A stretch of 64,000 nt of DNA from Bacteroidia bacterium (GTDB taxonomy: Bacteria; Bacteroidota; Bacteroidia; UKL13-3). Of the stretch, positions 21,625 to 53,851 are shown piece after piece (position 1 is the stretch's first letter; every line of letters begins with the position of its first letter). Position numbers and translations under genes: made by a program. The stretch lies in the NCBI GenBank assembly GCA_025454875.1, contig JALONP010000006.1, forward strand, positions 1 through 64,000, read 5' to 3'. The notes under the pieces are model-generated. The model searched no databases and was not told the origin of the DNA. It saw nothing but the letters and a program-made list of their open reading frames with translations.

Positions 21625-21632
21625 TACCTTTG
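21625..21632 (+). promoter_or_regulatory. -7 box TACCTTTG abutting the adaptor start
   Basis: The exact TAnnTTTG box ends only four bases before the ATG at 21637, which implies a leaderless or nearly leaderless mRNA. It also rules against the longer ORF starting at TTG 21610. Confidence 0.5.
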
Positions 21633-21636
21633 GTTT

Positions 21637-22716
21637 ATGATTAAATCCACATTCATTTACGCCATACTCATTTTTTTAGTTGCCAGTTGTGGTTCAAAAC
21701 AACAACCCATTACACCCACAGTTGAGCCCATTGTAGAGGCAGTATACGCATCAGGAATTGTTAAAAGCAACAACCAATACCAAGTGTATGCAACCGTTAA
21801 TGGAATTATTGATCAATGGTATGTTCAAGAAGGTGATTCTGTTTCGATTGGCACACCATTGGTGCGTTTGTCGAATGATGCATCTAAACTGAATGTAGAA
21901 AATGCACAATTGGCAGCCTCTTATAACGACTTTAAAGCCAATGAAAGCAAATTACGCGAATTAAAGTTAGCTGCAGATTTTGCAAAGCAAAAATACCTAA
22001 ATGATTCGTTGCTTTATATTAGGCAAGAGAGTTTATGGAAGCAACAAGTGGGATCACAAGTAGATTATGAACAACGTTTGTTGGCTTTTCAAAATGCAAA
22101 AACAGCTTATGAAAGTGCTGTGCTTAAATATGCTGATTTGAAAAAACAACTTGCATTTGTTTCGCAACAATCAAAAACAAACTTGCAATTAAGTCAAAAA
22201 CAAGCTGGAGATTTTACCATTAAAAGTGAGGTAAATGGCAGAATATATACACGCCTTCGTGAAAGAGGAGAATTGGCAAGCCCTCAAACACCATTGGCAA
22301 TAGTTGGGGATGCAAAACTTTTTGTTCTCGAACTTCAGGTGGATGAATATGATATTGTTCGAATTCAAAAAGGACAACAAGTATGGGTTACACTTGATAG
22401 TTATAAAGGCAAAACGTTTGAAGCACGCATTGCGCAAATTCATCCATTTATGAACGAACGAACAAAATCATTTAAAGTTGAAGCACTTTTTATAAACCAA
22501 CCACCAGTATTGTATCCTAATTTAACCGTAGAAGCAAATATTGTGATTGAGTCGAAAGCAAAAGCTTTAACAATACCCCGTAACTACATTACAGAAACAG
22601 GCTATGTATTAACAGCCAAAGGCGATAGTGTGCTTGTTAGCACAGGACTTAAAGATTATCAAAAAATTGAAATCTTATCGGGTATTACGGCAGATACTGA
22701 ACTTTTAAAACCCTAA
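21637..22716 (+). CDS. Periplasmic adaptor (HlyD/MacA-like) lipoprotein
   Basis: A 359-residue membrane-fusion protein. The start MIKSTFIYAILIFLVASCGSKQQ has a lipobox, so it is lipid-anchored. A biotinyl/lipoyl-like hairpin (GIIDQWYVQEGDSVSIGTPLVRL) precedes a long coiled coil (residues about 85-185), then the second half of the lipoyl domain (DFTIKSEVNGRIYTRLRERGELASPQTPLAIVG) and a beta-barrel domain. It heads a three-gene exporter operon with an FtsX-type permease and an ATPase, two bases apart. The substrate is unknown; a MacAB-like or lipoprotein-export role is possible. Confidence 0.83.
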   Translation: MIKSTFIYAILIFLVASCGSKQQPITPTVEPIVEAVYASGIVKSNNQYQVYATVNGIIDQWYVQEGDSVSIGTPLVRLSNDASKLNVENAQLAASYNDFKANESKLRELKLAADFAKQKYLNDSLLYIRQESLWKQQVGSQVDYEQRLLAFQNAKTAYESAVLKYADLKKQLAFVSQQSKTNLQLSQKQAGDFTIKSEVNGRIYTRLRERGELASPQTPLAIVGDAKLFVLELQVDEYDIVRIQKGQQVWVTLDSYKGKTFEARIAQIHPFMNERTKSFKVEALFINQPPVLYPNLTVEANIVIESKAKALTIPRNYITETGYVLTAKGDSVLVSTGLKDYQKIEILSGITADTELLKP

Positions 22717-28185: not shown

Positions 28186-29283
28186 TTAATAGACAAGCTT
28201 GCCGATTTTACCTTTTGGACCCGCTAAAAATACGGATTTACCTTTTTTGGCCTTGCGAACTACGTGGAAGGGTTCGGAGGAAATTTTTGCATTAACCCAA
28301 AAATACCAATCCCGATTACATTTCGTTTTATTCATGTAAACACCTTGGGTTCCAACTGCTACATATTGTGTTTTAGATATCAACTCAATAGAGGATTTAT
28401 AATCTTGGTTCCCATATTGAGTTCTAACAATAATGCTGTCTTTATATAAGTCTCCGTATCCTTTGATAGTAACGCATGACGTGGGATTACTTGCACATGT
28501 ATCACATTTGTAATCTCCACCAACAATGAAGTAATTGTCTTTATTCAATTTAACAAATGAAAAGGCCCCCTGTCCATTATCGCCCTGTGGAAGTGGCAAG
28601 TTGAGAGATTCCCATTTTACTAAATGTCGAATAAATCTGGCTTTTGTCCCTCCTGTAACAATGCCATATTCATTTTTGCCCCAACACCTCAAACTTGTTC
28701 CACTTGCAGCAAAAACGGCTTCACCTTCCATGGCAATTGGTGTTTGCGAAGTATCTAATTCTTGCCACGTTTCGCCACCATCAGTGGTTTGCAGCAATAC
28801 AAAATGATTGTGAATAGGGTCTCCTACTAGCATACCACGTTTCTCATCCCAAAAATCCATGGCATCTAAAAAATAGGCCGAATCATTTTTGCGAAACACT
28901 TCTTTCCATGTTTCACCACCATCACTTGTTTTTAATATAAGTGCTGGAGTGCCGCTGCTCATTACAATAGCTCGTTTGGAATCAAATGCTTCAATATCCC
29001 TGAAATCACTTTTTTCGTACCCTTTGAGTTGTTTATACACAAATGTTTGGCCTCCATCAACGCTTCTCGCTATGGTTCCACGGCTACCACTTACCCAAAT
29101 GGTTTGATCATTTACAACACTCAATCCTCTAAAACTTGTTTTGTGCAAAACCACACCTTCACCTAATTGAAACGCGTTGCTATCAAGCACTTCAATTTTG
29201 TATTGTGCCCTAATTGTGAATGTAAAAGCAAAAACGAATAAGGTAAAAAAGCAGATTTGTTGCCAAAAATTATCTTTGCCCAT
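28186..29283 (-). CDS. Secreted Ycf48-like beta-propeller protein
   Basis: A 365-residue exported protein: a signal peptide (ICFFTLFVFAFTFTIRAQ) followed by repeated Asp-box/BNR-type blades (SVDGGQTF, TSDGGETW, TTDGGETW). It resembles photosystem-assembly factor Ycf48-like and sortilin-type propellers found widely as Bacteroidota secreted proteins of unknown role. A Cys pair lies in CDTCASNPTSC. No T9SS tail is seen. Its ATG abuts the start codon of the divergent lipoprotein gene. Confidence 0.78.
   Translation of the reverse strand: MGKDNFWQQICFFTLFVFAFTFTIRAQYKIEVLDSNAFQLGEGVVLHKTSFRGLSVVNDQTIWVSGSRGTIARSVDGGQTFVYKQLKGYEKSDFRDIEAFDSKRAIVMSSGTPALILKTSDGGETWKEVFRKNDSAYFLDAMDFWDEKRGMLVGDPIHNHFVLLQTTDGGETWQELDTSQTPIAMEGEAVFAASGTSLRCWGKNEYGIVTGGTKARFIRHLVKWESLNLPLPQGDNGQGAFSFVKLNKDNYFIVGGDYKCDTCASNPTSCVTIKGYGDLYKDSIIVRTQYGNQDYKSSIELISKTQYVAVGTQGVYMNKTKCNRDWYFWVNAKISSEPFHVVRKAKKGKSVFLAGPKGKIGKLVY
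29271..29278 (+). promoter_or_regulatory. -7 box TATCTTTG for the lipoprotein gene, inside the opposite gene
   Basis: Exact TAnnTTTG match five bases before the ATG at 29284, lying within codons 2-5 of the divergent gene. It is one arm of the palindrome centred on CATATG. No good -33 box. Confidence 0.55.
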
Positions 29284-29838
29284 ATGTTCAAATATATTGC
29301 TTTTGCCATTATCCTTTTAACATCTTGCACTGTTAACCAACAGCTAGGATACTTTGAAATGAAACCGTTTGTGCCCGTTGGGGTTAATAGGGTGAACCAG
29401 CCTTTGTATGTTCAATTCAGCGAGCGGGTAAGCGACCAATTTAATTGGAAACAAAGTGGTTTTACTTTTAATGTAACGCAGTTGCACAAAAGTTATTTGT
29501 ATGGAACAAGAATGGTATATGGTGATGTTTTTAGTGAAGTGCGTTTGTATCAACCAAATGATTATGGATTTATTTTATCTTACCAATTGCTAGAGCCTAA
29601 ATGGACATTTGAAGAATCCCTTTATACCGATAGTATCTCCATCTTAGAACCTGTATGCACAATTGCTTACAGCAGCAGTTTGTATCGCAACGAGTTGTTG
29701 ATGAACCAAACAAATGGTAGTGTGAGCGTTACCCAAAGCAGCCTTGGATCTTTTGCCAAACCTGATACCATCTTTAAGGAGGCCACCAAACAATGCTTGT
29801 CTAAAATAGCTGAATCGCACCTAAACCGTTTAAGGTGA
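29284..29838 (+). CDS. Hypothetical lipoprotein
   Basis: A 184-residue predicted lipoprotein (MFKYIAFAIILLTSC, cysteine at 15). The rest is unrecognised; it looks like a mixed beta protein with no motif I can name. I start at ATG 29284, not 29257, because the latter is a TTG in front of the -7 box. It may be functionally linked to the divergent Ycf48-like protein through the shared control region. Its stop touches that of the methyltransferase on the other strand. Confidence 0.65.
   Translation: MFKYIAFAIILLTSCTVNQQLGYFEMKPFVPVGVNRVNQPLYVQFSERVSDQFNWKQSGFTFNVTQLHKSYLYGTRMVYGDVFSEVRLYQPNDYGFILSYQLLEPKWTFEESLYTDSISILEPVCTIAYSSSLYRNELLMNQTNGSVSVTQSSLGSFAKPDTIFKEATKQCLSKIAESHLNRLR
29289..29296 (-). 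promoter_or_regulatory. -7 box TATATTTG for the Ycf48-like gene, inside the opposite gene
   Basis: Minus-strand TATATTTG is an exact TAnnTTTG match, five bases before the minus ATG at 29283 and within the first codons of the plus gene. It is the second arm of the CATATG-centred palindrome. Confidence 0.55.
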
Positions 29839-34504: not shown

Positions 34505-34512
34505 TACATTTG
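34505..34512 (+). promoter_or_regulatory. -7 box TACATTTG for the serine hydrolase gene
   Basis: Exact TAnnTTTG match 33 bases before ATG 34546. The longer ORF starting at TTG 34510 would begin inside this box, so it is rejected. Confidence 0.5.
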
Positions 34513-34545
34513 GATAAGCAAACTCATTTAACCAATCCACTTCGT

Positions 34546-35856
34546 ATGAAAATCCGACTGCTCCTTCTTGTATTTTGGTTGTTTCAATTTCCCGTATTTG
34601 CCCAACAAGATTATTTTCCACCAATAACTGGGGGTGATTGGCAAACCATTTCACCCGACTCGTTAGGTTGGTGCAGCGACCGCATTGACTCATTGTACAC
34701 CTTTTTAGAAACATCCAATACAAAAGGATTCATTGTATTAAAAGATGGAAAAATTGTGCTTGAAAAATACTTCGGTACATTTACCAAAGACAGTACGTGG
34801 TATTGGGCGTCTTCGTCAAAGGCATTAACAGCCTTGTTGGTTGGCATTGCGCAGGAAGAAGGTTTTTTAAAAGTATCAGACTCAACTTCGAAGTATTTAG
34901 GTACAGGCTGGACAAGTTGCACACCTGAACAAGAGGGAAAAATCACGATTTGGAACCAACTTACCATGACCAATGGGTTGGATGATGTAGCACCTGAAGA
35001 TAATCACTGCACAATCGACACTTGTTTGCTTTACAAAGCACCGGCTGGAACACGTTGGGCTTATCACAATGCGCCATATACCCTTTTAGAAAATGTTGTA
35101 AGCGAAGCAACAGGGAGAAGCTATAATGCCTTTACACGATCTAGAGTTGGCTCAAAAATAGGATTGAATGGCATTTGGTATCCTTCTGGATTTAACAACA
35201 TCTTTGTAAGCAATGTAAGAGAATATGCTCGATTCGGATTATTAGCGGCCAATAATTTCATTTGGCAAACAGATACTATTTTAAAAGATTCTGCTTATAA
35301 AAAACAAATGGTATCCACTTCGCAAGAATTAAATAAGTCGTACGGTTATTTGTGGTGGCTTAATGGTAAATCTTCTTACATGATACCTGGCGGATCACAG
35401 TTTGTAATTCCTGGAATGCTCGCACCCGATGCCCCAGCAGATATGTTTGCTGGTATTGGTAAAAACGGCCAAATAGTAAGCATATCAAAATCAGAAGGAA
35501 TTGTATTGGTAAGGATGGGTAACACACCAGGAACCACTGTTGATGTGCCTACACAATACACCAACGATTTATGGCGCGAATTTCAAAAAGTGAATTGTGC
35601 TACTGGGTTAAAGGAAGTTGGAATGGCGACTTTAAATGCAAGTGTGTATCCTAATCCGGCTTCAACCAAAGCAATTATTACACTCCAATCTGGTAAAATA
35701 CCCGAATCAATTGATGTATACGATACTTATGGGCGCTTGTTATTACATGAAACAAATACGAACCAAGTGCATATTCATGAACTTGAAAATGGCCTATACA
35801 CAGTTGTAATTACCCACCAACGCGCTACACAATCACTTAAATTAGTAAAGCAATAA
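34546..35856 (+). CDS. Beta-lactamase-family serine hydrolase with T9SS sorting domain
   Basis: A 436-residue exported enzyme. After a signal peptide ending PVFAQ comes a class C beta-lactamase/DD-peptidase-like fold: the nucleophile lies in WASSSKAL (SxxK) and the second motif is YHN. The C-terminal 75 residues (ASVYPNPASTKAIITLQ ... YTVVITHQRATQSLKLVKQ) are a type A T9SS sorting domain, so the protein is delivered to the cell surface or secreted. Actual substrate is unknown; esterase or peptidase activity is equally possible. DUF4403 follows with no gap. Confidence 0.85.
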   Translation: MKIRLLLLVFWLFQFPVFAQQDYFPPITGGDWQTISPDSLGWCSDRIDSLYTFLETSNTKGFIVLKDGKIVLEKYFGTFTKDSTWYWASSSKALTALLVGIAQEEGFLKVSDSTSKYLGTGWTSCTPEQEGKITIWNQLTMTNGLDDVAPEDNHCTIDTCLLYKAPAGTRWAYHNAPYTLLENVVSEATGRSYNAFTRSRVGSKIGLNGIWYPSGFNNIFVSNVREYARFGLLAANNFIWQTDTILKDSAYKKQMVSTSQELNKSYGYLWWLNGKSSYMIPGGSQFVIPGMLAPDAPADMFAGIGKNGQIVSISKSEGIVLVRMGNTPGTTVDVPTQYTNDLWREFQKVNCATGLKEVGMATLNASVYPNPASTKAIITLQSGKIPESIDVYDTYGRLLLHETNTNQVHIHELENGLYTVVITHQRATQSLKLVKQ

Positions 35857-46960: not shown

Positions 46961-47809
46961 TTAAAATTCTTCGCGTTGTTTGTAAAATGTTTCACGTTCC
47001 TTCTGCTTTTCGATTTTCTGCAAAGCTGTATTGGTTTTTGCTACAATGTTCCGCAATTCGTTTAGGTATTTGCTTTCTGGATATTCGGCTGTAAAATCGG
47101 CATATGCAGTTAAGGTATTTTGGTAACGTTCTACTTTTTTGGTTTCGATGCTACCCTCAGCAAGGTAAAAATGAGATTTAACTGTGAGGTAATCGAGCTC
47201 TTCTTTTTGGGCTATTTCCGGAAACTCGCGCACCACATTTGGCATGGCAACAATGGCACTTTTGTACTCTCTGATATCATAGTATAATTTTGCACTTTTG
47301 TAGGCTTTAAAAGCCAACTTTGCACGCAATTTATCAAGCAAAACATTACACTCTGCCACATACTTGCTATCGGGGTAAACGCTCACAAACAATTTAACTG
47401 CCTCAATGCCTTTGCGCGTATCGGTGGGGTCTAAAAAATAATCTTGCGACTCGAGGTAAGCACAATAAGCTGTCATGTAAAGTGATTCTTCGGCAAACTC
47501 ACCCGAAGGAAAATTTTCAAAATAACTTTTAAACTGAAATCCAGCTAAGAGGTAATTGCGCAAACCATAATTGCAGTAAGCGCTGTAGTAAATAACTTTT
47601 TCAGCCATTGCTGTTCCGTTAAAATTATCTTGCAACTGTTCAAATAACGTAGATGCTCGGTAGTAATCCTTCTTATTGTAATAAGCCATAGCCATTTCGA
47701 GCTTTTTATTTACATCAGGATTTTTAAGCGTTTTTTGGTATTTGGAACAGCCTGTGAACAGGAGCGCAATACTTAAAAGGAATAAACAAAAGAGGCGGTT
47801 AATGAACAT
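46961..47809 (-). CDS. bamD: Outer membrane assembly lipoprotein BamD
   Basis: A 282-residue lipoprotein (LLFTGC lipobox) made of TPR-like helices, including MAMAYYNKKDYYRASTLFEQLQDNF and FAEESLYMTAYCAYLESQDYFLDPT. BamD is an essential part of the BAM complex that folds outer membrane beta-barrels. First gene of the bamD-rpoZ-coaBC-DUF4835 operon. Confidence 0.93.
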   Translation of the reverse strand: MFINRLFCLFLLSIALLFTGCSKYQKTLKNPDVNKKLEMAMAYYNKKDYYRASTLFEQLQDNFNGTAMAEKVIYYSAYCNYGLRNYLLAGFQFKSYFENFPSGEFAEESLYMTAYCAYLESQDYFLDPTDTRKGIEAVKLFVSVYPDSKYVAECNVLLDKLRAKLAFKAYKSAKLYYDIREYKSAIVAMPNVVREFPEIAQKEELDYLTVKSHFYLAEGSIETKKVERYQNTLTAYADFTAEYPESKYLNELRNIVAKTNTALQKIEKQKERETFYKQREEF

Positions 47810-47817
47810 ATGAAGGA

Positions 47818-47847
47818 CAAAATTAGGCCATTATTCAGGGTTGTCAA
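47818..47847 (-). promoter_or_regulatory. Promoter of the bamD operon: TTG-N19-TAATTTTG
   Basis: On the minus strand TTG (47847-47845, in the word TTGACA) is followed after 19 bases by TAATTTTG (47825-47818), a full Bacteroidota -33/-7 match. The ATG is eight bases past the box, so the leader is only a few bases. Confidence 0.7.
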
Positions 47848-49732: not shown

Positions 49733-49806
49733 GAAGCCCAAAAAAGCTAAGCTGATGTTGATATTTTATACAAGTGCTGCACGCTGAATTATTGTACTTT
49801 TACCGC

Positions 49807-52107
49807 GTGGATTATCTAAGTGTATTAAACGAAAGTCAACGCGAGGCAGTGTTGCAAACAGAAGGTGCGGTGATGATTGTGGCGGGTGCCGGATCGGGAA
49901 AAACAAGAGTACTTACATACAGGATTGCGCACCTATTGCAAAAGGGTGTAGATCCATTTAATATTTTGTCGTTAACCTTTACCAACAAAGCGGCTCGCGA
50001 AATGCGTGAGCGGATACATGCTGTTGCGGGTAGCGAAGCTAAAAATATTTGGATGGGTACGTTTCACTCCATTTTTGCCAAGATACTGCGTATTGAAAGT
50101 GATAAACTCGGGTACCCTCGAAACTTTACCATATATGATACAGACGATGCCAAAAGCTTATTAAAAAGCATTGTAAATGAACTAAAGTTAGACGACAAAG
50201 TATACAAACCCGGCATCTTGTACAACCGCATTTCGGCCGCAAAAAATGCATTGATTAAAGCTGCTGCGTACAATGCGGATAGCGAAAATACTCTGTATGA
50301 CGAGGCTTCGGGACGACCTAAATTTGGCGTAATCTACAGCATGTATGAGGCACGTTGTTTTAGAGCAGGTGCGATGGACTTTGATGATTTACTTGTGAAA
50401 ATGTTTGACTTGCTCAACAACTACAATGATGTATTAAACAAGTACCAACGAATGTTTCAATACATTATGGTTGATGAGTTTCAGGATACCAACCATGCAC
50501 AGTATGCCATTATTAGGAAGCTTGCCAATATGCATCAGAATATTGCAGTAGTTGGTGATGACGCCCAAAGTATTTACGCATTTAGAGGAGCAACCATCCA
50601 AAACATTTTAAACTTTAACCGCGATTTTCCAGATGTAAAGGTGGTGAGGTTGGAACAAAACTACCGCAGTACTAAAACGATTGTAAACGCGGCCAATTCC
50701 ATCATTAAACAAAATAAAGACCAAATAGAAAAAAAGGTGTGGACCGAAAACCACCTTGGAGATAAAATTCGTGTGTTTAGGGCACTCACCGATAATGAAG
50801 AAGGAAAAATGGTGGCTTCGTCAGTGTTTCAAGAAAAGATGAACGCCCATTTGGCCAATAAAGATTTTGCCATTTTGTACCGCACCAATGCACAAAGCAG
50901 GGCAATGGAAGAGGCGCTTCGCAAACTCAATATTCCTTACCGAATTTATGGTGGACAATCTTTTTACCAACGCAAAGAAATTAAAGATTTACTCGCCTAC
51001 TTTAGGGTGGTGATTAACCCAAATGATGAAGAAGCTTTAAAACGCATTATTAACTATCCAACTCGGGGCATAGGAAAAACAACACTTGATCATCTGATTG
51101 TGCTTGCCGAAACACATCAAACAAGCTGGTGGTCGATAATGGAACAAGCTCACCAATATGGCTTAAAAGCAGCAGGCTTGCTGCAAGACTTTGTGATGAT
51201 GGTAAAAAGCTTTCAAGTGTTATTGCCTAAAAATGCATATGATGTGGCCATGCACATTGCCAAACAAAGTGGCCTTTTAAAAAACCTATACGAAGACAAA
51301 ACAGTAGAAGGTATTGCACGTTACGAAAACATTGAAGAATTGCTGAATGGTATTAAAGAGTTTAGTGTAGAAGAAACTGCGGATGACGATGGAGTATTGC
51401 GCCCAAATACCTTAGCCGGATTTTTAGAAAACGTAGCCCTCTTAACTGATGCCGATAAGGAAACAGATGACGACAATGACAAGGTGAGTTTAATGACCAT
51501 CCATGCAAGCAAAGGACTTGAGTTTAAACAAGTATATGTTGTAGGATTGGAGGAAAACTTGTTTCCATCGCAACTCTCCTTAAACAGCCGGTCGGAATTG
51601 GAAGAAGAGCGCAGGTTGTTTTATGTAGCGCTTACCCGAGCCATGCAAAAACTGACCTTATCATTCGCTACTTCGCGGTTTAAGTTTGGCACGATGATTA
51701 ACAGTGAACCAAGTCGGTTTTTGCAAGAACTAGACCCACAGTATTTGCAAATAGAAGGTATGGTAAATAGGCAACCTGCACCTCAACAAAATAGTTACGG
51801 CAAACCATATGGAAGTTATGGTAAACGGCCTGCCGAAAGTGCGCCTGCCTCACCATCGGTTCCAAAAAACTTTAAGCCTATTCAAAAAGCAACACCAGCA
51901 CCTTCTGCCATAGATCCTAATTTTATTGGTGATGATACAAGCAACTTGGTTGCGGGGCAGCAAGTAGAACATGCGCGGTTTGGCAAAGGACAAGTGCTTG
52001 GCATAGAGGGTGCAGGTGAAAGTAAAAAGGCACATATAGAATTTACCAATGGCCATGGAAAAAAAACCATCGTGCTCAAATTTGCCAAATTGAAAATACT
52101 ATCTTAG
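49807..52107 (+). CDS. UvrD/PcrA-type DNA helicase
   Basis: A 766-residue SF1A helicase. Motif I is VAGAGSGKTRVL, followed by LTFTNKAAREMRERI (Ia), VDEFQDTN (II), VVGDDAQSIYAFRGA (III), LEQNYRS (IV), LMTIHASKGLEF (V) and VALTRAMQKL (VI). The C-terminal KOW/Tudor-like end (GQQVEHARFGKGQVLGIEG) matches PcrA/UvrD. I prefer GTG 49807, giving VDYLSVLNESQREAV, which aligns with relatives; a TACTTTTA box lies four bases before it. The longer track ORF starts in a repeat region. Confidence 0.92.
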   Translation: MDYLSVLNESQREAVLQTEGAVMIVAGAGSGKTRVLTYRIAHLLQKGVDPFNILSLTFTNKAAREMRERIHAVAGSEAKNIWMGTFHSIFAKILRIESDKLGYPRNFTIYDTDDAKSLLKSIVNELKLDDKVYKPGILYNRISAAKNALIKAAAYNADSENTLYDEASGRPKFGVIYSMYEARCFRAGAMDFDDLLVKMFDLLNNYNDVLNKYQRMFQYIMVDEFQDTNHAQYAIIRKLANMHQNIAVVGDDAQSIYAFRGATIQNILNFNRDFPDVKVVRLEQNYRSTKTIVNAANSIIKQNKDQIEKKVWTENHLGDKIRVFRALTDNEEGKMVASSVFQEKMNAHLANKDFAILYRTNAQSRAMEEALRKLNIPYRIYGGQSFYQRKEIKDLLAYFRVVINPNDEEALKRIINYPTRGIGKTTLDHLIVLAETHQTSWWSIMEQAHQYGLKAAGLLQDFVMMVKSFQVLLPKNAYDVAMHIAKQSGLLKNLYEDKTVEGIARYENIEELLNGIKEFSVEETADDDGVLRPNTLAGFLENVALLTDADKETDDDNDKVSLMTIHASKGLEFKQVYVVGLEENLFPSQLSLNSRSELEEERRLFYVALTRAMQKLTLSFATSRFKFGTMINSEPSRFLQELDPQYLQIEGMVNRQPAPQQNSYGKPYGSYGKRPAESAPASPSVPKNFKPIQKATPAPSAIDPNFIGDDTSNLVAGQQVEHARFGKGQVLGIEGAGESKKAHIEFTNGHGKKTIVLKFAKLKILS

Positions 52108-52183: not shown

Positions 52184-52191
52184 TACTTTTG
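52184..52191 (+). promoter_or_regulatory. -7 box TACTTTTG for recN
   Basis: Exact TAnnTTTG match seven bases before ATG 52199, implying a very short leader. No -33 at 19-20 bases. Confidence 0.5.
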
Positions 52192-52198
52192 AACCATT

Positions 52199-53851
52199 AT
52201 GTTGCAATCATTACAGATTCGAAACTATGCGATTATTGAGTCAGTAGATATTCAATTTGACTCAAAATTGAATATTATCACTGGCGAAACAGGTGCGGGT
52301 AAATCAATCGTAATGGGTGCACTGGGATTGATTCTAGGAGAGCGTGCCGATACCAAAATTTTGTACACGCCAGAAGATAAATGTGTGGTAGAAGGTGTTT
52401 TTGATATTGGAGCTTACAAACTGAATGCTTTTTTTGAAGCAAATGAGTTGGATTATGACCATTCATGCATTGTACGGAGGGAAATTGCACCCAATGGCAA
52501 ATCGAGGGCATTTGTAAACGATACGCCTGTAACCGTTTCGTTGTTAAAAGAATTGGGAAGCCAACTGATTGATATTGTATCGCAACACCAAACATTGGAA
52601 TTAAATGACGAAGGGTTTCAGTTAAACTTAATTGATGCCATTGCTGAAAATGGTGAGGCATTGCAAGCGTATGAAGTGCAATACAAACGTTTTAAACAAC
52701 TCGAAAAAGAGCTAAAGAACTTGCAAGAACGCGAAACAAAAGCACGTGCTGACGAAGATTATATTCGCTACCAACTTACTGAACTGACTGAAGCCAATGT
52801 GCAAGCAGACGAACAGTTACGACTAGAACAGCAACTTGATGTATTGAGCAATGCTGAAAAGATACAGCAAGCTGCTTCTTCGGCAGCGCATGCATTAAAC
52901 GAAAGTGAGCAAAGCATTGCAGATGGCTTGCAACAAATAAAAGCTACGCTATTGCCCTCGGCTAAACACCACCAAGGCATTGCTTCGTTACTCACTCGTT
53001 TTGAATCGGCTGTTATCGAACTAACGGATATTGCTGCTGAACTTGAAACCATAGCTGAAAACACACATGCCGATCCTGCTATGTTATTGCAAACTGAAGA
53101 TCGGTTGCAAGTGTTGGTTGCTTTGCAAAAAAAACACAGGGTGCTTAACAATGCAGAATTGCTTGAAGTGCAAGCGCAGTTGGAGCAACAACTCGCTGGT
53201 TTAGGCAGTTTGCAAACAGCCATTCTCGAATTGGAACAGCAACTCAAAACAAATGAACAGGATTTGGTGAAACGTGCACAAGCACTTTCCAATAAACGGA
53301 AACAAACCATTCCGTATATTGAAAAGGAAATCCACCAATTGTTTGAGCAAGTAGAAATGCCAGACGCCCGTATTCAAATTGTACACGAGCAATTAACAGC
53401 ACTTGGCAGTAGCGGTACCGACTCTATTCAACTTCTATTTGCTGCAAACAAAGGCCAATCATTTCAACCCATTCGCAAAGTAGCATCAGGTGGAGAGTTA
53501 AGCAGATTGATGCTTTGCATCAAATCACTGATTGCAAACAAAGTGGCATTGCCTAGCATTGTGTTTGATGAAATCGACACTGGAATTTCGGGTGAGGCCG
53601 CCATTAAAGTTTCGAAGGTAATGAAATCCCATGCTGCACATCACCAGGTAATTGCCATCACCCATTTACCTCAAATTGCAGGGAAAGCTGATGCTCATTT
53701 TTTTGTTTCGAAAACAAGTGAAGCTGACAAAACCACTACCCAAATAAGGCGTTTAAACCAACAAGAGCGCTTATCAGAAATTGCCCGAATGTTACATGGC
53801 GCTAACCCTTCACCAAAGGTATTGGCTGCAGCTAAGGAACTGATTGCCTAA
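52199..53851 (+). CDS. recN: DNA repair protein RecN
   Basis: A 550-residue SMC-like ATPase for double-strand break repair. The N-terminal head has ITGETGAGKSIVMGALGLILGERAD, two antiparallel coiled-coil arms occupy about residues 160-370, and the C-terminal head has VASGGELSRLMLCIKSL (signature) and SIVFDEIDTGISGEAA (Walker B), with ITHLPQIAG as H-loop. Length is normal. Confidence 0.95.
   Translation: MLQSLQIRNYAIIESVDIQFDSKLNIITGETGAGKSIVMGALGLILGERADTKILYTPEDKCVVEGVFDIGAYKLNAFFEANELDYDHSCIVRREIAPNGKSRAFVNDTPVTVSLLKELGSQLIDIVSQHQTLELNDEGFQLNLIDAIAENGEALQAYEVQYKRFKQLEKELKNLQERETKARADEDYIRYQLTELTEANVQADEQLRLEQQLDVLSNAEKIQQAASSAAHALNESEQSIADGLQQIKATLLPSAKHHQGIASLLTRFESAVIELTDIAAELETIAENTHADPAMLLQTEDRLQVLVALQKKHRVLNNAELLEVQAQLEQQLAGLGSLQTAILELEQQLKTNEQDLVKRAQALSNKRKQTIPYIEKEIHQLFEQVEMPDARIQIVHEQLTALGSSGTDSIQLLFAANKGQSFQPIRKVASGGELSRLMLCIKSLIANKVALPSIVFDEIDTGISGEAAIKVSKVMKSHAAHHQVIAITHLPQIAGKADAHFFVSKTSEADKTTTQIRRLNQQERLSEIARMLHGANPSPKVLAAAKELIA

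Follow-up and report, generated by a model that had tools for sequence, protein, structure and literature searches.

Within the window, the whole 64,000-nucleotide stretch of Bacteroidia DNA that we analysed, ordinary sigma-A(Bfr) -7 elements most probably start RNA polymerase on, or up to about 4 bases before, the start codons of six genes, giving mRNAs that are leaderless or nearly so. The evidence consists of boxes at non-random distances from start codons with a sharp edge at four bases, the specificity of the motif, partial conservation of the spacing (recN and the gene at 29284) and differences between lineages; from these we infer the activity of the boxes, the position of +1 and ribosome initiation on leaderless mRNA. 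RNA polymerase bound at the -7 box would begin the transcript at the start codon or up to about 4 bases upstream of it, and the ribosome would have to initiate at the 5'-terminal AUG or GUG of a leaderless or near-leaderless mRNA.

The distance d was counted as the number of bases from the last G of the TAnnTTTG box to the start codon. When the sequence was re-read, all six box sites were found exactly where the sequence-only reading had placed them. Five are exact matches to the sigma-A(Bfr) -7 element TAnnTTTG and one has a single mismatch; the boxes are very likely -7 elements of this type, and presumably active. The boxes and their genes are as follows.

21625..21632, forward strand: putative -7 box TACCTTTG for the ATG at 21637 (d=4)
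21637..22716, forward strand: HlyD-type adaptor with a lipoprotein N-terminus (PF16576/PF13437), predicted to be leaderless
29271..29278, forward strand: putative -7 box TATCTTTG for the ATG at 29284 (d=5), within the first codons of the divergent gene
29284..29838, forward strand: small predicted lipoprotein of no Pfam family, its start abutting the divergent start (CATATG)
29289..29296, reverse strand: putative -7 box TATATTTG for the ATG at 29283 (d=5), within codons 2-5 of the forward-strand gene
28186..29283, reverse strand: YCF48/BNR-repeat protein with a signal peptide (PF14870), with orthologues in family f1
47818..47825, reverse strand: putative -7 box TAATTTTG for the ATG at 47809 (d=8)
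46961..47809, reverse strand: bamD (YfiO), lipoprotein (PF13525)
49795..49802, forward strand: near-box TACTTTTA with one mismatch, d=4 to the GTG at 49807
49807..52107, forward strand: UvrD/PcrA helicase with a GTG start (PF00580/PF13361)
52184..52191, forward strand: putative -7 box TACTTTTG for the ATG at 52199 (d=7)
52199..53851, forward strand: recN, whose N-terminus aligns from residue 1 in relatives

The starts taken for these genes appear plausible, because the HlyD-type protein, BamD and both divergent proteins have lipoprotein or signal-peptide N-termini, and RecN and UvrD align with their orthologues from residue 1. The adaptor start at 21637 was also picked independently by coding score. 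Elsewhere in the window, the TTG start mechanically listed for the ORF 34510-35856 is doubtful because it is located inside a TAnnTTTG box (34505-34512); coding score points to a start near 34579.

In F. johnsoniae, 4 or 5 nt lie between the -7 element and the mapped TSS, and the -33 TTTG element of sigma-A(Bfr) promoters is weak or absent (PMC6847099). Given this published spacing, a box at d=4 would make the start codon's first base +1, and for the d=4 genes the TSS deduced from the box would lie at about the start codon. The sequence-only reading had held that these mRNAs have almost no 5' leader if transcription starts a few bases past the box. The published spacing predicts leaders of 0-4 nt, which bears this out, but only the genes at 21637 and at GTG 49807 would be strictly leaderless. 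The predicted leader would be about 1 nt for 29284 and 29283, about 3 for recN and about 4 for bamD, and for these four genes 'very short leader' is safer wording than leaderless. Read-through from upstream genes could additionally supply the adaptor and recN with leadered mRNA isoforms.

Boxes adjacent to start codons are far more frequent than chance predicts. Among the 54 genes of the window, five exact boxes were found at d=4-8 against 0.31 expected from the upstream background rate of the genome (Poisson P ~2e-5). The genome of the window, G000, was sampled over 826 kb (28% of the genome; the window plus L021-L040 and L047-L066), with genes called by coding score, blind to upstream motifs. 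The sample contained 14 boxes at d=4-8 against 2.25 expected (P ~1e-7). A histogram of TAnnTTTG-to-start distances, which had been proposed as a check, was drawn over the 392 genes of the sample that are preceded by a gap of 30 bp or more, and it has its spike where leaderless genes should fall. Seven genes have a box at exactly d=4, against a background of 0.45 per position, another seven at d=5-8 together, and only one at d=0-3; this near-empty interval is the pattern expected from a physical limit. Further upstream, a wide hump covers d of roughly 10-28, and overall the boxes are strongly enriched upstream of starts. On the reverse strand, boxes show neither spike nor hump in the same 392 genes.

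Controls of the motif were consistent with this. With the motif letters permuted, 1.8 genes on average, and never more than 6, had a match at d=4-8, compared with 14 for TAnnTTTG. In the window as a whole TAnnTTTG is rarer than chance (65 occurrences vs 93 expected, many of them inside genes), so general abundance does not explain the boxes next to starts. An in-frame-stop artefact, arising from TAA or TAG in a box at d=4, was considered and ruled out, since the spike persists in G000 (d=4 count still 6) with boxes beginning TAC or TAT (TAY), which are unable to give an in-frame stop. The whole-genome d=4 count of G000, taken alone, is only 1.7 sigma above background.

Start-abutting promoters form a minority class in G000, real yet mostly ordinary in kind. 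Distances of d=4-8 account for 14 of the 81 boxes at 0-40 (about 17%) in the sample and for 9 of the 43 boxed divergent first genes (21%) in G000, where the leaderless class would stand alongside promoters whose leaders measure some 10-30 nt. At d=4-8 the start codons are 22 ATG, 3 GTG and no TTG in G000, and 70 ATG, 16 GTG and no TTG in G098, a member of another family described below. The absence of TTG fits a start codon whose purine doubles as +1; since the start caller penalises TTG, it counts as supporting evidence. No excess of Shine-Dalgarno sequences was found in either genome.

Base composition downstream of the box is less simple. The leadered promoters of G000 have an A peak 7-9 nt past the box (A 0.61 at +8), with C and G depleted from +7 onward, and the published spacing of 4-5 nt alone does not explain this peak. 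No purine peak at +5 was seen after the box in leadered promoters of G000 or G098. An A peak at 7-9 nt and none at +5 suggest that the TSS may float across several bases, so that sequence alone does not pin down its exact position.

Relatives retain the short spacing at some of these genes, and at others it has drifted. Upstream of recN, a box at d=7-10 is found in 5 of 13 relatives of the same family, against about 0.1 expected from the background rate, and others have near-boxes; in families other than that of the window the recN box is gone. In G002 the orthologue of the 29284 gene also has d=5, though its box is altered to TAAATTTG (L159:2532-2539). For uvrD, G001 has TATTTTTA at d=4 ahead of the same GTG; the DNA of the two is very similar, and it was in this one close relative that the site was seen to be kept, the comparison covering upstream DNA of some of the uvrD orthologues. 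Upstream of bamD, G001 has the same box but at d=15, and G002 and G010 (L159 and L164) keep the box of the 29283 gene 25-26 nt from the start of its orthologue, which lies about 20 nt further on. In the relatives compared, the short spacing is partly kept at recN (5 of 13) and kept at 29284 (G002), whereas at bamD and 29283 it is not.

The divergent pair 29283/29284 has zero intergenic bases, its starts being fused as CATATG, and each box lies in codons 2-5 of the opposite gene. It is the sole pair with a gap of 0 among 86 divergent pairs in the sampled part of G000. In three more divergent pairs of G000 the called starts overlap or lie at most 10 bp apart, which may reflect errors in start calling. 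At 29283/29284 the two promoters are probably mutually exclusive, because two polymerases would need the same DNA. The pair is retained in G002 and G010, and in G002 the forward-strand gene again has its d=5 box.

The arrangement is not confined to the genome of the window. TAnnTTTG-N4-ATG was counted in 119 whole Bacteroidia genomes, with spacings 81-101 as background, and occurred 11,869 times against 6,961 expected, a 1.7-fold excess; the N1 spacing gave 5,989. The N4 count exceeded background by more than 3 sigma in 77 of the 119 genomes, and the excess was uneven. A box at a TSS-compatible distance, seen as a spike at d=4, is common to G000, G098 and the class survey.

The family f43 (12 genomes in 2 genera, 1.4-2.3 Mb) was the extreme case. 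The N4 excess is 138-200 sites per genome of 2.1-2.3 Mb, and no excess at all was found in the leadered spacing range 15-35. All 12 genomes are alike, with 133-223 N4 sites, while a reversed-pattern control gave 2-23. The only other family of the same order that was examined, represented by one genome that is 77% complete, lacks the pattern (50 vs 39). G098, the f43 member that we examined over 420 kb (L127 and L138-L157; GC 0.55), has 71 boxes at 0-40, of which 54 lie at d=4-8 and 30 at exactly d=4. Of its 76 divergent first genes, 46 are boxed, and 43 of these (57% of the 76) have the box at d=4-8; there are hardly any leadered promoters. The d=4 genes of G098 include alaS, ileS and pckA, whose N-termini align with the family models. 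It is quite probable that f43 has shifted almost all of its sigma-A promoters onto start codons, leaderless mRNA being the default for first genes including alaS, ileS and pckA, unlike in the other family of its order, for which the comparison is with one incomplete genome. The divergent gaps of G098 are often short, with a median of 58.5 bp vs 130 in G000.

We weighed three other explanations for the boxes of the window. If the boxes were chance matches, the true promoters would lie further upstream and the mRNAs would have ordinary leaders. Single sites in AT-rich DNA can indeed be accidental, and many of the 65 TAnnTTTG of the window are within genes; but the excess over expectation (5 vs 0.3 in the window, 14 vs 2.25 in the sample), a spike sharp to one base, the letter-permutation control and the conservation of the recN box make this explanation improbable. 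It is similarly hard to credit that the promoters are real but the start codons wrong, so that translation begins further downstream on leadered mRNAs. Start prediction without SD signals is uncertain, and in the orthologues of the 29283 gene the distance between this box and the start is indeed about 20 nt greater. Against this, UvrD, RecN and the AlaS, IleS and PckA of G098 can be aligned to the N-termini of their families or orthologues, beginning at about residue 1-15, no downstream start would keep the signal peptides of 29283, 29284 and 47809 intact, and start errors would not accumulate at one exact distance.

A TTTG-rich element beside the start might also be a translation signal and not a promoter, since Bacteroidetes have AT-rich near-start signals in place of SD (PMC6847099, PMC9581028). 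However, every letter of the element, the TA dinucleotide included, agrees with the mapped -7 element, whereas it is A-rich and not T-rich translation signals that have been described for the group. Moreover, divergent first genes, which need a promoter of their own, are very often boxed at this distance (57% of the divergent first genes counted in G098). We regard this explanation as very improbable indeed. A promoter that starts transcription at or just before the start codon remains the reading that we prefer.

In Actinobacteria and Deinococcus-Thermus, leaderless mRNAs have a TANNNT box about 10-12 bp ahead of the start (PMC3160421). The genes described here resemble them in that the core promoter keeps a fixed spacing, compatible with the TSS, to an AUG or GUG start and there is no SD, but the element is the Bacteroidota -7 element TAnnTTTG and not their Pribnow box. 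A 2011 survey of leaderless genes, based on an E. coli-type -10 box, found such genes in 1 of 37 Bacteroidetes/Chlorobi genomes (2.4%) and deemed unrecognised high leaderless percentages unlikely (PMC3160421). Work based on GeneMarkS-2 classes the FCB group under AT-rich non-canonical signals (PMC9581028). Of the species whose 5' ends were mapped, F. johnsoniae has 13% of its leaders at 10 nt or less (PMC6847099), F. psychrophilum has 5.5% leaderless (PMC9723704) and B. thetaiotaomicron has 3.7% of its leaders under 10 nt (PMC7366714). G000 is like these three in having the same promoter element with the leaderless arrangement in a minority, a loose comparison of percentages because the methods differ. 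f43 is the reverse of the mapped Bacteroidetes, with nearly all recognised promoters at the leaderless distance. The leaderless minority in G000 is thus a known arrangement, whereas the pattern in f43 runs against what has been published on the group. A search of the open-access literature turned up no report of a Bacteroidia lineage dominated by leaderless genes; subscription papers lay outside this search, which leaves the absence of such a report unproven.

In Bacteroidia the ribosomes conceal their anti-SD, and initiation is thought to take place on leadered, A-rich mRNAs. If the reading of f43 is true, this family beside its non-leaderless relatives offers a natural comparison for ribosome start on a 5'-terminal AUG and for the evolution of the switch. 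Gene finders that assume AT-rich leader signals for the phylum could place starts by the d=4 box.

The sequence-only reading had also suggested that these promoters mislead ORF callers into longer starts that run through the box. This was not borne out. The start of the longest ORF passes through the box in 6 of 25 genes with d=4-8 in G000 and in 21 of 86 in G098, and an in-frame start at least 12 nt upstream is present in genes generally at 166 of 569 (G000) and 87 of 320 (G098). Because read-through of the box is no commoner than upstream in-frame starts in genes at large, no special explanation is needed, and the idea was rejected.

Two further families showed the d=4 class. f39 is intermediate: in G056 (L128-L137), 19 of 39 boxes are at d=4-8, a large d=4-5 class standing beside leadered promoters. 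The three f39 genomes G056, G095 and G128 have 164-246 excess d=4 sites each, and G095 has an odd deficit of leadered spacings (-181 +/- 65). In f9 (G026, G070 and G106), for which we have counts only, chance TAnnTTTG-ATG pairs are few and the excess at d=4 is clear, with 17-33 sites vs about 5-7.
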